NCBI RefSeq assembly: GCF_004309735.1
Contig: NZ_SIXC01000006.1
Span: 103,447 to 156,638, forward strand
Direction: 5' to 3'
DNA: 53,192 nt
From: Desulfovibrio legallii
Lineage (GTDB): Bacteria; Desulfobacterota; Desulfovibrionia; Desulfovibrionales; Desulfovibrionaceae
In this document: positions 6,011-46,552 of the stretch, piece after piece
Layout: every line of letters starts with the position of its first letter
Position numbering within the stretch: position 1 is the first letter of the stretch
The notes under the pieces: generated by a model
Told to the model about the DNA's origin: nothing
What the model saw: only the letters and a program-made list of their open reading frames with translations
Database searches by the model: none
Made by a program: the position numbers and the translations under genes

Positions 6011-6053
6011 GAGAAAAAGTTCCTTCCCCCCCATCCTTCAAAAAATTTTTTTC
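6011..6053 (+). repeat. Family C intergenic repeat, copy 1
   Basis: A pyrimidine-rich tract, AAGTTCCTTCCCCCC then CATCCTTCAAAAAATTTTTTTC, begins two bases after the stop of the VWA gene. The same arrangement occurs at 19380-19430 and, on the other strand, at 46468-46552. All three lie just behind a stop codon in the gene's own direction, so a role at transcript ends is possible. Confidence 0.7.
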
Positions 6054-6929: not shown

Positions 6930-7080
6930 GAACACTGCCTCCTGTTGGAAAAATGGCGCAAAAACGGCACGGACCACCCTCGGCAAGGCACTTGCCCAAG
7001 GGCTTCCCAGCCCTATATAAGTATGTATGCGCGCAAGGCAAGCGCGCCAACCGCTCCCTGGGAGCCTGATGGAGGACACA

Positions 7081-7662
7081 ATGAAAAAAATTCTGGTACT
7101 GGCCGGCGACTATGTGGAAGACTACGAGGTGATGGTTCCTTTCCAGATGCTGCAGATGCTGGGCTATGAAGTCCACGCCGTCTGCCCGGGCAAAAAGCCT
7201 GGCGATACGGTGCGCACGGCCATCCACGATTTTGAGGGTGACCAGACCTATTCCGAAAAACGCGGCCACAACTTCGCCATCAACGCCGACTTTGATCAGG
7301 TGAAGGTGGCGGACTACGCCGGCCTGGTCATCCCCGGCGGACGCGCGCCGGAATATCTGCGCCTCAATGCCCGCCTGCTGGAAATCGTGCGGGAGTTCAA
7401 CGACGCCAAAAAACCCATTGCCGCCGTGTGCCATGGCCCGCAGATTCTGGTTTCTGCCGGGGTGCTGCGCAACCGCCAGTGCACGGCCTATCCCGCAGTG
7501 AAGCCCGATGTGGTGGACGCGGGCGCTACCTGGTGCGATTTTAACGAAACCCTCACCAGCGCCACCGTGGACGGCAACCTGGTGACGGCCCCGGCCTGGC
7601 CCGCGCATCCGGCCTGGATTGCCGCTTTTGTCAAACTGCTGGGCGCAAAGATCAGCATCTAG
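7081..7662 (+). CDS. DJ-1/PfpI family protein
   Basis: A 193-residue class I glutamine-amidotransferase-like protein. It starts [20 protein letters not shown], has [12 protein letters not shown] near residue 85, and has the nucleophile elbow AVCHGPQ near residue 120, where cysteine is the reactive residue. Members act as proteases, glyoxalases/deglycases or chaperones, so the exact reaction cannot be assigned. The ATG at 7081 follows GGAGGACACA; a longer reading from 7027 has no ribosome site. Its TAG stop lies inside the CTAG that opens repeat A1, so the repeat supplies the stop codon. Confidence 0.93.
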
Positions 7663-7788
7663 AGCAGCTAACGAATGAAATGAGTTAACTTCTCTGCAAG
7701 GATTTTCCTGAAAAATCCTTGCCACGAAATGCGAGCAGGCAGGCTTTTGCCTGCCGTCATCGAGCATTTCAAGTGTTAAATGCTCTAG
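7659..7788 (+). repeat. Family A stem-loop repeat, copy 1
   Basis: About 130 bases bounded by CTAGAGCA and TGCTCTAG. It contains the four hairpins described for copy 2 with small changes, some compensatory (GCAAGGATTTT pairs with AAAATCCTTGC around a longer loop). The left CTAG overlaps the stop codon of the DJ-1 gene. It lies in the convergent space between that gene and flgH. Confidence 0.9.
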
Positions 7789-14672: not shown

Positions 14673-16025
14673 ATGCCGAAGACTGCGGCGTTGATTCTGG
14701 CGGCGGGCAAGGGCACCCGCATGCATTCCGACAAGCCCAAAGTGCTGCAAACCCTTCTGGGCGAGCCCATGCTGGCTTGCGTGCTGGAGGCCCTGCGCCC
14801 CGTTTTTGGCGAGGACGTCTGGATTGTGGCCGGGCACCGGGCCGATCTGGTGCAGGCCGCCTTTCCCCAGGCGCGCTTCGTGCTGCAGAAGGAACAGCTG
14901 GGCACGGGCCACGCCCTGCTGCAGGCCTTGCCCGCGCTGACAGAAGCGGGCTGCAGCCAAGTGCTGGTGGTCAACGGCGATGTGCCCTTGCTTTCTGAAA
15001 GTCTGGTGCGCCAGTTCCTGGCCGAGGGCATGGGCGCAGACCTGGCCTTCGCCACCATTGAGGTGGACAATCCCGGCGCTTACGGGCGGGTGGTGCGGCG
15101 GGACGACGCCGTGACCGCCATTGTGGAAGCTAAGGATTACGACCCCGCCCTGCTGGGCCCCGCAAGTAACGAGGTCAACGCCGGCATGTACCTGTGCGAT
15201 CTGGCCGCCGCGGCGCAACTGCTGCCCCAGGTGGGCAACAAAAACAAAAGCGGCGAGTACTACATCACAGACCTGGTGGCCCTGGCCGTGGCCCGCAAGT
15301 ACCGGGTGCGCGGCGTGCGCTGCGGGCGGGACGCGGCCCTGTTGGGCGTCAATGCGCCGCGGGAGCTGGCGCAGATGGAAGAGACTCTGCGGACCAGAAT
15401 AGTGGAAGGGCTGCTGGACGCCGGGGTCATGCTGCACGCCCCTGACGCCGTGCGGGTGGGCCCCAGGGCGCTGGTGGAGCCGGGCGCGGAGCTCACCGGC
15501 CCGTGCGAAATCTATGGCGTGAGCCGCGTGGCCCGCGGGGCCAGTGTGGCTTCGCACTGCCTAATCCGGGATTGCGAGCTGGCCGCCGGGGCCGAAGTGC
15601 GGTCTTTTTCGCATCTGGAAGGGGCTGTGGTGGGGCCCGGCGCGCTGGTGGGGCCCTTTGCCCGCCTGCGGCCCGGCGCGGTGCTGGAAGAAGCCTCCCA
15701 TGTGGGCAACTTTGTGGAGCTGAAAAAAACCCGCCTGGGCAGGGGGGCCAAGGCCAACCACCTCACCTATCTGGGTGATGCGGCCATCGGTGCGGGCAGC
15801 AATATCGGCGCAGGCACTATTACCTGCAACTACGACGGCAAGCACAAATACCAGACCTTCATTGGCGAGCGCGCCTTTATCGGCAGCAATACGGCCCTGG
15901 TGGCGCCCGTCAGCGTGGGCGAAGGCGCCCTGGTGGGGGCGGGTTCAGTCATCACCAAAGATGTGCCCGCGGGCGAGCTGGCCATAGCCAGGGGACGACA
16001 AAAAAACCTGCCCCGCAAAGGCTAG
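14673..16025 (+). CDS. glmU: Bifunctional UDP-N-acetylglucosamine pyrophosphorylase / glucosamine-1-phosphate acetyltransferase
   Basis: GlmU makes UDP-GlcNAc for peptidoglycan and lipopolysaccharide. The 450 residues are normal. The N-terminal uridyltransferase has LILAAGKGTRMHSDKPKVLQ, and EQLGTGHALLQA near residue 75. The C-terminal left-handed beta-helix acetyltransferase has NFVELKKTRLGRGAKANHLT, GAGTITCNYDGKHKYQT and GSVITKDVPAGELAIAR. GGAG precedes the ATG at 14673. The TAG stop lies within the CTAG opening of repeat A2, so the repeat supplies the stop codon. Confidence 0.97.
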   Translation: MPKTAALILAAGKGTRMHSDKPKVLQTLLGEPMLACVLEALRPVFGEDVWIVAGHRADLVQAAFPQARFVLQKEQLGTGHALLQALPALTEAGCSQVLVVNGDVPLLSESLVRQFLAEGMGADLAFATIEVDNPGAYGRVVRRDDAVTAIVEAKDYDPALLGPASNEVNAGMYLCDLAAAAQLLPQVGNKNKSGEYYITDLVALAVARKYRVRGVRCGRDAALLGVNAPRELAQMEETLRTRIVEGLLDAGVMLHAPDAVRVGPRALVEPGAELTGPCEIYGVSRVARGASVASHCLIRDCELAAGAEVRSFSHLEGAVVGPGALVGPFARLRPGAVLEEASHVGNFVELKKTRLGRGAKANHLTYLGDAAIGAGSNIGAGTITCNYDGKHKYQTFIGERAFIGSNTALVAPVSVGEGALVGAGSVITKDVPAGELAIARGRQKNLPRKG

Positions 16026-16150
16026 AGCAGTTAGCGAATGAAATGAGCTAACTGCTCTGCAAGGATTTTCTTGAAAATCCTTGCCACGAAATGCGAGAAG
16101 GCAGGCTTTTGCCTGCCGTAAGCGAGCATTTCAAGTGTTAAATGCTCTAG
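16022..16150 (+). repeat. Family A stem-loop repeat, copy 2 (best preserved)
   Basis: 129 bases bounded by CTAGAGCA and TGCTCTAG. Four perfect hairpins: AGAGCAGTTAGC/GCTAACTGCTCT (16024-16058); GCAAGGATTTTC/GAAAATCCTTGC with a TT loop (16059-16084); GGCAGGC/GCCTGCC with a TTTT loop (16100-16117); and GAGCATTT/AAATGCTC (16124-16147). Flanking CTAG at both ends fits insertion into CTAG with TA duplication, as IS630-type elements do. It encodes nothing. Confidence 0.92.
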
Positions 16151-16824: not shown

Positions 16825-17012
16825 GGCGTTTCCCTGGGGTGTGCGTGATTTATGCCTCGGTGCTAACCTGACAAGTATTGTTAAAGGGAGCCGTCACTGT
16901 CTCTTGTGTGCACGCCCGGCGCGACCGGGAAGCCTGAGAGGGGCACACAGGCGCCCGACCTGGGTATCCAGGTTTCTGTACCGCAAGCATGACACGGCGC
17001 TCTGGGGAAGCG
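16825..17012 (+). ncRNA. ssrS: 6S RNA
   Basis: 6S RNA binds the sigma-70 RNA polymerase holoenzyme by imitating open promoter DNA. Position right after zapA is the classic locus. Structure seen: a closing stem of 16827-16847 with 16993-17012 (20 pairs with one bulge, about a third of them G-U), continued by AUGC/GCAU and GGU/ACC. Then come a large open region; a second stem, UGUGUGC/GCACACA (about 16904-16949), capped by CCCGG/CCGGG; and the 3' side hairpin ACCUGG/CCAGGU. The run CCGGGAAGCCU resembles the conserved CCGAGAAGCCU of enterobacterial 6S RNA. The exact ends are approximate, and I find no convincing promoter of its own. Confidence 0.82.
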
Positions 17013-19379: not shown

Positions 19380-19430
19380 GAAGATCTCCCCTTCCCCCCA
19401 CGCCCCCCATCCTTCAAAAAACTTTTTTCA
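19380..19430 (+). repeat. Family C intergenic repeat, copy 2
   Basis: CCCCTTCCCCCCACG, CCCCCCATCCTTC and AAAAAACTTTTTTC begin immediately after the stop of the TRIC-like gene. See copy 1 at 6011. The A/T tract after a C-rich stretch is not a standard terminator. Confidence 0.7.
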
Positions 19431-19508: not shown

Positions 19509-19658
19509 CAGGGCATTACAATTTTGCAATGCCCTGATGGTTGCGTAAGCAGCCGTCCGCCGTGGAGGCGTAAGCGCAATTCATTTGCACGGTTAAGCGT
19601 TGGCACGAGCGTGCCGTGACCGTTGAGAATACCAATTCGCAAAAATAACCTGCTCTAA
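19509..19658 (-). repeat. Family B stem-loop repeat, copy 1
   Basis: On the minus strand it runs from TTAGAGCAGG to a closing CAGGGCATT/AATGCCCTG hairpin (19509-19536). It contains a perfect GGCACG/CGTGCC hairpin. Shared blocks with copy 2 at 38928-39030 are GCACGAGCGTGCC, GGTTGCGTA and TTGAGAATA. The TAG stop of the exported protein gene (19655-19657) is part of its TAGAGCAG end. Confidence 0.8.
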
Positions 19659-24553: not shown

Positions 24554-24893
24554 GGGGATGAAAGCCTCCGTACAACGGCACAAAATACGAGGGCGCGCGT
24601 TGTTGCCGCACGCCCTCGCGAGGTACACTATGAAAACCGGCTCATCCTGCACGGGCAACCGCTTTCCCCAAGCGTCTTTGGGAAGAACCGCCGGGCCGGG
24701 CTCAGAACAGGTTATTTTTGAGAATTTCTGTTCTCAAAATTTCAAGCGGCCCAGTCCGGCTGTGGACAGCGCAACTGCCCGGTGCTGCTGTCTTTGCCCG
24801 TAGCTTCCTTCGTCATAACGGGCCAAGCCGCGCTTACGCCTTTATGGCGGATATCGGCGCGCGCAGCCGCCAGCTCAATTTCAACGTCACGCG
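24554..24893. other. Intergenic region with family D repeat
   Basis: 340 bases without a gene between the DUF2207-like gene and typA, both on the minus strand. It holds the family D repeat with its TTTTGAGAA hairpin, and nothing else recognisable. The typA transcript probably ends here. Confidence 0.55.
24705..24829 (-). repeat. Family D repeat, copy 1
   Basis: The core at 24784-24829 (minus strand) matches 36427-36471 at about 42 of 45 bases (GCTTGGCCCG, TATGACG, AGGAAG and TACGGGCAAAGACAGCAGC blocks), then AGTTGCGCTG in both. About 70 bases later the same strand forms the hairpin TTTTGAGAA/TTCTCAAAA followed by ATAACCTG, an end module shared with family B copy 1. Confidence 0.7.
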
Positions 24894-38759: not shown

Positions 38760-38888
38760 CTGGAGCATTTAACACTTGAAATGCTCGCTTACGGCAGGCA
38801 AAAGCCTACCTTCTCGCATTTCGTGGCAAGGATTTTCAAGAAAATCCTTGCAGAGCAGTTAGCTCATTTCATTCGCTAACTGCTCTGA
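38760..38888 (-). repeat. Family A stem-loop repeat, copy 3
   Basis: About 129 bases, inverted relative to copies 1 and 2. The hairpins are kept, including GCAAGGATTTTC/GAAAATCCTTGC with an AA loop, except for one changed base in the GGCAGGC stem. The flanking CTAG sequences have changed (CTGG and CTGA), which suggests an older insertion. Confidence 0.9.
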
Positions 38889-38927
38889 CCGCGCGCCCGG
38901 CCGCATTGCCTGCCGGTGCGGGGCAGG

Positions 38928-39030
38928 CCAGGGTATGTCAACGTTGCAATGCCCTGGCGGTTGCGTACGCGCCGGAACGAGCGTGCCATAACCTTTGAGA
39001 ATATCTATCCTCAAAGGGAATCTGCTCTAG
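38928..39030 (-). repeat. Family B stem-loop repeat, copy 2
   Basis: On the minus strand it begins CTAGAGCAG eight bases after the helicase stop and ends in a CCAGGG/CCCTGG hairpin with CAACGTTG inside. The TTTGAG/CTCAAA hairpin and GAGCGTGCC block are shared with copy 1. It is shorter than copy 1 because the middle is missing. Confidence 0.8.
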
Positions 39031-46467: not shown

Positions 46468-46552
46468 GAAAGAAGTTTTTTGAAGGATGGGGGGTGTGGG
46501 GGGAAGGGAACTTTTGTTCACAAAAGTTCCCTTCCCCCCACAAAATTTTCCC
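46468..46552 (-). repeat. Family C intergenic repeat, copy 3
   Basis: On the minus strand, immediately after the recJ stop: AAGGGAAC blocks, then GTTCCCTTCCCCCCACACCC, CATCCTTC and AAAAAACTTCTTTC. It is the longest copy, because a second inverted half makes the palindrome at 46495-46542. Confidence 0.7.
46495..46542. terminator. 23-bp perfect palindrome between convergent rel and recJ
   Basis: TGTGGGGGGAAGGGAACTTT and GT, then a two-base TC loop, then the exact complement. An AAAA/TTTT tract follows on each side (AAAATTTT to the right, TTTTTT at 46476 to the left). It can serve as a bidirectional terminator. Both arms carry the family C block GTTCCCTTCCCCCCAC. Confidence 0.7.

Follow-up and report, generated by a model that had tools for sequence, protein, structure and literature searches.

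The RUP element of pneumococcus, as portrayed in a 2007 review, is 107 bp long, occurs in 108 intergenic copies, has a TA target and IS630-like ends, and is thought to be mobilised by the transposase of IS630-Spn1 (PMC2229807). The same review gives a length of 127 bp for ERIC and of 107 and 155 bp for Correia elements, with terminal inverted repeats, TA termini and strongly folding transcripts, and it presented RUP as the sole exception among bacterial repeats in which such likeness had by then been found (PMC2229807). IS630-type MITEs are elements of a kind already known from other bacteria. IS630 itself prefers TA in CTAG, according to the title of Tenzen and Ohtsubo (1991; entry in the reference list of PMC2170065), and for ISY100, 34 of the 39 products are reported to lie in TA and to show the normal duplication (PMC2170065). 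GTAG REPs are described as palindromic repeats whose TAG ends often act as stop codons (PMC3733652).

The element considered here lies in a 53,192-nt stretch of Desulfovibrio DNA (hereafter the window; G000:C6:103447-156638), which belongs to a genome, G000, of 2,675,015 bases (2.68 Mb) in 35 contigs. Among named genomes, its GlmU finds its best matches mostly in Desulfovibrio and Desulfovibrionaceae. Set beside RUP by properties and not by sequence, it is likewise a short intergenic repeat of about 100 copies with a TA target and IS630-type ends; it differs in preferring YTAR and in having its putative partner observed only in congeneric species. With ERIC and the Correia/NEMIS elements, compared through their properties as given in the review and through an Rfam scan, it shares short length, terminal inverted repeats, terminal TA and strong folding, but it has no Rfam match at the gathering threshold, and insertion sequences with similar ends are visible in its genus. 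A TA duplication, which is probable here, would be a feature in common with IS630 and ISY100, and CTAG preference is one with IS630, whereas those elements are autonomous with a transposase gene of their own and the 127-bp element carries no gene. GTAG REPs and REPINs also have TAG ends that give stop codons; unlike them, the Desulfovibrio element combines GAGC inverted ends with a two-sided YTAR target, and no Y1 transposase was found in G000, of which this and the other protein searches described below covered contigs C1-C23 and roughly half of C24 (the rest of C24 and the eleven short contigs C25-C35 read N). Taken together, the family is very probably an IS630-type MITE that works like RUP of pneumococcus.

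The element and its family

Three copies of near-equal length (130, 129 and 129 bp) had been proposed in the window, and all three were confirmed in position and strand. The features are as follows.

7659-7788, + strand: copy 1, a diverged copy of 130 bp in a CTAG target, one base longer in the loop of hairpin 2
7660-7662, + strand: TAG at the border of copy 1, which ends a PfpI-family gene (7027-7662) as its stop codon
16022-16150, + strand: copy 2, the element under study, 129 bp; its TA-to-TA part, 16023-16149, is 127 bp; target CTAG
16023-16025, + strand: TAG stop codon of glmU (14673-16025), which is the border of the element
16023-16045, + strand: left terminal repeat including TA, TAGAGCAGTTAGCGAATGAAATG; matches one end of a complete G016 element of the IS630 family at 17/23 positions
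16127-16149, - strand: right terminal repeat including TA, in inward direction TAGAGCATTTAACACTTGAAATG; matches both ends of a complete G022 element of the IS630 family at 18/23 positions each
16024-16058, + strand: hairpin 1 of copy 2, 12-bp stem (predicted fold)
16059-16084, + strand: hairpin 2 of copy 2, 11-bp stem (predicted fold)
16100-16117, + strand: hairpin 3 of copy 2, 7-bp stem (predicted fold)
16124-16147, + strand: hairpin 4 of copy 2, 8-bp stem (predicted fold)
38760-38888, - strand: copy 3, 129 bp; borders TCAG/CCAG, that is, CA replacing TA on both sides

Over 127 nt, copy 2 and the inverted copy 3 show 98% complementarity. Intact CTAG on both sides, reported for two of the copies, is indeed seen in copies 1 and 2, and not in copy 3. 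Downstream of glmU and the element the window also carries a 6S RNA (Rfam RF00013, 83.5 bits; 16828-17012, + strand), and in the related genome G017 a diverged copy lies in the glmU-6S neighbourhood (L063, G017:C4:2486-2607) at a position that differs from that of the window copy.

The whole-genome search that the original prediction had called for showed the three copies to be members of a family of some 100, dispersed over both strands. A 39-nt core pattern, allowing up to 3 mismatches, gave 103 matches in G000 (52 forward, 51 reverse), and its reversed-pattern control gave 0. From these and the window, 93 distinct copies were read (90 fetched loci plus the window, part of the 103 places being left out); copy 1 of the window stands outside the 93 because of its extra base, and a substitution-only core scan did not pick it up. 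The length from TA to TA is 127 bp in 90 of the 93 copies, and TA is present on both borders in 84. The ends are inverted repeats, as had been suggested: of the 89 copies compared, all 127 bp long, 87 match at 16-19 of the 23 outer positions (12 and 15 in the remaining two), against a best value of 14/23 among 2000 random 127-nt stretches. The 89 copies that have both this length and an intact left end differ from the consensus at a median of 2 positions, and the most repeated identical sequence occurs 14 times, which points to a recent spread of the family.

That no described family had been recognised agrees with the Rfam scan, in which no family overlapped the element at the gathering threshold. 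Among the titles and abstracts of the open-literature matches listed there was no paper on this Desulfovibrio repeat; subscription papers fall mostly outside that scope, and the absence of such a paper is thereby not proven. A phage or plasmid as carrier was rejected, since viral contigs gave 0 matches to the exact 22-nt core pattern and a blastn search of plasmids and phages found no match either.

Several Desulfovibrio genomes carry related families built of multiple hairpins. BLAST with the element gave matches in 8 of 61 genomes, G000 included, all of the same genus, and the end pattern (up to 2 mismatches) was found in 15 of 35 other genomes of the genus, its reversed control giving 1 match in total; counts were highest in G022 (134), G002 (110), G021 (56), G020 (54) and G025 (38). 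Elements with TA-GAGCA ends and lengths of 118, 130, 141, 148 and 196 bp were read in five genomes, and the consensus of 20 copies from G017 equals that of G000 at 118/127 positions.

Other repeats were noticed in the window. An older, diverged family, repeat B, which starts with TAGAGCAGATTACCTTTGAGAATATGTATTCTCAAAGG, lies at about 38920-39030 (- strand), 19509-19657 (- strand) and 24704-24880 (+ strand). It often adjoins the 129-bp element and has the same outer end. The loci read contain 36 loose matches to it, and part of these are the reverse of others. A further repeat, CCCCCCATCCTTCAAAAAA(C/T)TTTTTTC, occurs at 6027-6053, 19389-19429 and 46468-46508, with copies 93-96% alike.

Target site and duplication

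The original prediction envisaged insertion at CTAG with duplication of TA, in the manner of IS630. Targets were read in a clean set of 83 copies (the 93 minus 10 with an altered border or a poor end match) and comprised CTAG (30), CTAA (19), TTAG (18), TTAA (7) and others (9). YTAR thus accounts for 74/83 clean copies, compared with 408/5844 background NTAN sites taken from the copy flanks, coding sequence included (p about 5e-75). In G017 the proportion is 17/19; for the 148-bp family of G022, whose copies are loosely delimited, it is only 8/14. CTAG is the favourite target and not a strict one: the target is YTAR. The proposal accordingly stands in its outline, backed by the TA borders of 84/93 copies, the rank of CTAG as the commonest target, the lack of any copy behind glmU in relatives and the GAGC ends of IS630 elements in the genus, and falls in naming CTAG alone.

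The outer bases are constrained on both sides (left C/T in 77/83, right G/A in 80/83), a palindromic constraint of the kind expected for a double-stranded target. The inner bases are fixed regardless of target, with G after the left TA and C before the right TA, and this independence excludes a 4-bp duplication. A 2-bp duplication of TA fits best, with a clear preference in only two of four nested cases. In these, copies lie inside the older repeat B, and the joint was scored with 0, 1 and 2 TAs as sums over four relatives each. One TA was favoured at L119 (228, 260 and 232) and L018 (234, 258 and 250), L108 was undecided with two TAs slightly ahead (272, 272 and 280), and L107 showed a slight preference for two (116, 138 and 146). 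Tandem pairs with a single common TA were seen, two in G000 and one in G022.

At the glmU stop the element is absent from all 37 loci of relatives listed (at least two contigs being counted twice, from two collections); GlmU matches at these loci extend to residue 444-451, and D. piger (L179) has an empty CTAG at the stop. The DNA of glmU and neighbouring stretches is 66-83% identical in 12 congeners, so that these loci are not strict empty sites. When the 93 copies were compared with 20 G017 loci, no insertion site matched on both flanks and a few matched on one.

The form of the target bears on a reading in which the element is REPIN-like, made up of a pair of inverted hairpins that both stand on a TAG foot, and moves as single-stranded DNA by means of a RAYT/IS200-type (Y1, HUH) transposase. 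A hairpin with a TAG foot at each end does recall GTAG REPs, whose ends are likewise described as often yielding TAG stops (PMC3733652), and 6 of the 8 genomes searched have Y1 transposases. We nevertheless hold this reading to be very unlikely: Y1 matches number 0 in G000, within the coverage given above, and 0 in G017, both outer bases are constrained in the palindromic manner of a double-stranded target, and the ends of the element are similar to those of IS630.

Genomic position and folding

The border of the element coincides exactly with the stop codon of a neighbouring gene in 32 of 91 copies, the codon before insertion having been TAG in 25 and TAA in 7 and the stop that remains being TAG. 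Such copies number 11/20 in G017 (from its best matches) and 5/16 in G022. Copies inside a called ORF are limited to 1/91 in G000, 1 in G017 and 0 in G022; ORFs came from a simple caller of our own based on third-position G+C and not from a trained gene finder, and copy 1 is outside the 91. From the YTAR sites available, about 26.5% of copies would be expected at stop codons, which gives p 0.07 for G000 (32/91), p 0.009 for G017 (11/20, with the G000 expectation) and p 0.005 for the pooled 43/111. Enrichment at stop codons over available sites is therefore weak, and stop-codon homing as a main claim was scaled down on these values. Divergent intergenic regions hold 9/85 copies versus 25/47 background YTAR sites (p 2e-7) and convergent regions 35/85 versus 6/47 (p 7e-4), the background being small (four stretches, 93,446 bases). 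Selection against insertions in promoters would explain the scarcity in divergent regions.

As single strands the window copies fold strongly, with z values against 200 dinucleotide shuffles of -7.6 for copy 2, -7.0 for copy 1 and -6.6 for copy 3. All four hairpins had been thought to be kept in every copy. This fails for copy 1, in whose minimum-energy fold the two ends pair together and replace hairpins 1 and 4; nor was the supposed compensating change in its second hairpin seen, where 11 pairs are kept and the loop has 5 nt instead of 4.

Strong folding and the concentration of copies at gene 3' ends (the convergent and divergent counts above) are what could recommend a functional RNA module, acting in 3' UTR processing, stability or termination, with its structure under selection. 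Double changes at paired positions, too, number 30, versus a mean of 11 and a largest value of 17 in 300 shuffles. However, 25 of the 30 concern a single pair of hairpin 1, 12-26, at which A-T replaces G-C in 25 of 73 distinct sequences from G000 and G017, and they belong to a subfamily in which the adjacent pair is broken (pair 11-27 is T-T in 23/73). Paired columns are moreover more variable than unpaired ones (0.029 versus 0.013 in 89 copies), the G017 consensus has a different fold, and copy numbers on the two genome strands are nearly equal. Conservation of structure as proof of an RNA function was rejected, given the more variable paired columns and the weight of one pair among the double changes. 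The RNA-processing module that the original prediction had offered as an alternative finds no support, and a functional RNA is as improbable as the REPIN-like reading.

Candidate partners and mode of movement

For an IS630-type MITE, partners would be sought among IS630 elements. PF13358 is present in 17 of 37 genomes of the genus (3/8 and 14/29), with several loci bearing TA-GAGC ends. A complete IS630-family element with such ends in G016 is 1064 bp long, has a single ORF (305 aa counted from the ATG) and sits in a CTAG target; another, in G022, has 995 bp, two overlapping ORFs and an ATAG target. The proteins they encode hit NF033545 (IS630 family transposase) and PF13358. Taken by itself, the N-terminal ORF of the G022 element stays under the NCBIfam cut-off, and Pfam gives HTH families only for it. 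These two, from species other than the host, supply the best matches to the ends of the element, 17/23 on the left (G016) and 18/23 on the right (G022), scores that 92 and 77 out of 20000 shuffled versions also attained when only the part after TAGAGC was shuffled and compared over 11 IS ends. The 148-bp MITE family local to G022 matches the IS630 end of that genome at 21/23, which 0 of 20000 shuffles reach. TAGAGC-type ends lie near IS630 genes at 11/26 and 4/14 loci, against 1/19 and 2/9 control transposase loci (full-flank loci only, hence 14/30 IS630 and 19/30 and 9/20 controls), and MITEs nearby can produce such matches.

An IS630-type element with GAGCA ends had been sought by the original prediction; complete ones with TA-GAGC ends exist in two other species, and none was found in the covered part of the present assembly. 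PF13358, PF01797 and PF01609 gave no match in G000, within that coverage, or in G017, the two genomes with the closest family members by BLAST; G017 has no known gap of the kind seen in G000. The G016 transposase likewise found matches in 13 of 26 genomes, G016 included, and none in G000 (with the same coverage) or G017. Since C25-C35 and part of C24 read N, and since many of the 41 matches to this transposase in G002 sit at contig ends, a multi-copy partner in G000 could go unseen; its absence is not proven, and the partner could alternatively have been lost. Contig ends read in G000, part of all its ends, showed no GAGC ends and look to us like IS3, IS21 and rRNA. At L004, L102 and L106 copies abut IS-end-like sequence, the continuation of which caps several contigs.

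IS630-type genes near TAGAGCA in G022 (C84, L374) and G020 (C172, L362) were rejected as partners for want of an enclosing pair of matching ends. These PF13358 genes, which lack enclosing transposon ends in two species and are possibly domesticated, stand beside an ORF that by its look is presumably a sigma-54 regulator.

Least probable of all is movement by some other TA- or YTAR-targeting transposase, for example of the IS5 type, for although the genus has several PF01609 elements whose inverted ends are flanked by TA, PF01609 has no match in G000 (as covered) or G017, TAGAGCA preceded by C/T occurs in only L292, L293, L296 and L314 of 30 PF01609 loci with no pair enclosing a transposase (that at L293 is a separate short element), so that these elements were rejected as partners, and IS5 makes a 4-bp target duplication, which the fixed inner bases exclude. 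The IS630 elements of the genus, judged by their ends, are a plausible class of candidate partner.

The miniature mobile element reading of the original prediction is thus upheld by some 100 dispersed copies, by TA borders in 84/93 and by IS630 elements with GAGC ends in the genus. As an IS630-type MITE, the element would be a non-autonomous transposon of the IS630 family (Tc1/mariner type) carrying just the two ends that a transposase recognises, and would depend on movement in trans. An IS630-type transposase would excise it and join it to TA within YTAR, with TA being duplicated. Because both ends read TAG inward, an insertion that hits a TAA or TAG stop would always leave a TAG stop and the protein unchanged; insertions within genes would be lost, and those in divergent promoter regions would be rare. 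Restoration of the stop, together with the few copies in divergent promoter regions, may explain how the insertions are tolerated. That YTAR target and TAG-inward ends form an evolved safe-landing design, homing to stop codons and restoring them so as to reach high copy number in a compact genome without gene damage, and common to differing MITE families of several Desulfovibrio species, is an extension that we consider unlikely.

To the single case singled out by the 2007 review, these results would add IS630-type MITE families of Desulfovibrio, together with complete IS630-family elements with similar ends. The stop-codon-restoring geometry offers a simple account of how a dense genome may tolerate about 100 insertions, and it would mean that many genes of this Desulfovibrio genome have stop codons and 3' ends derived from a transposon.
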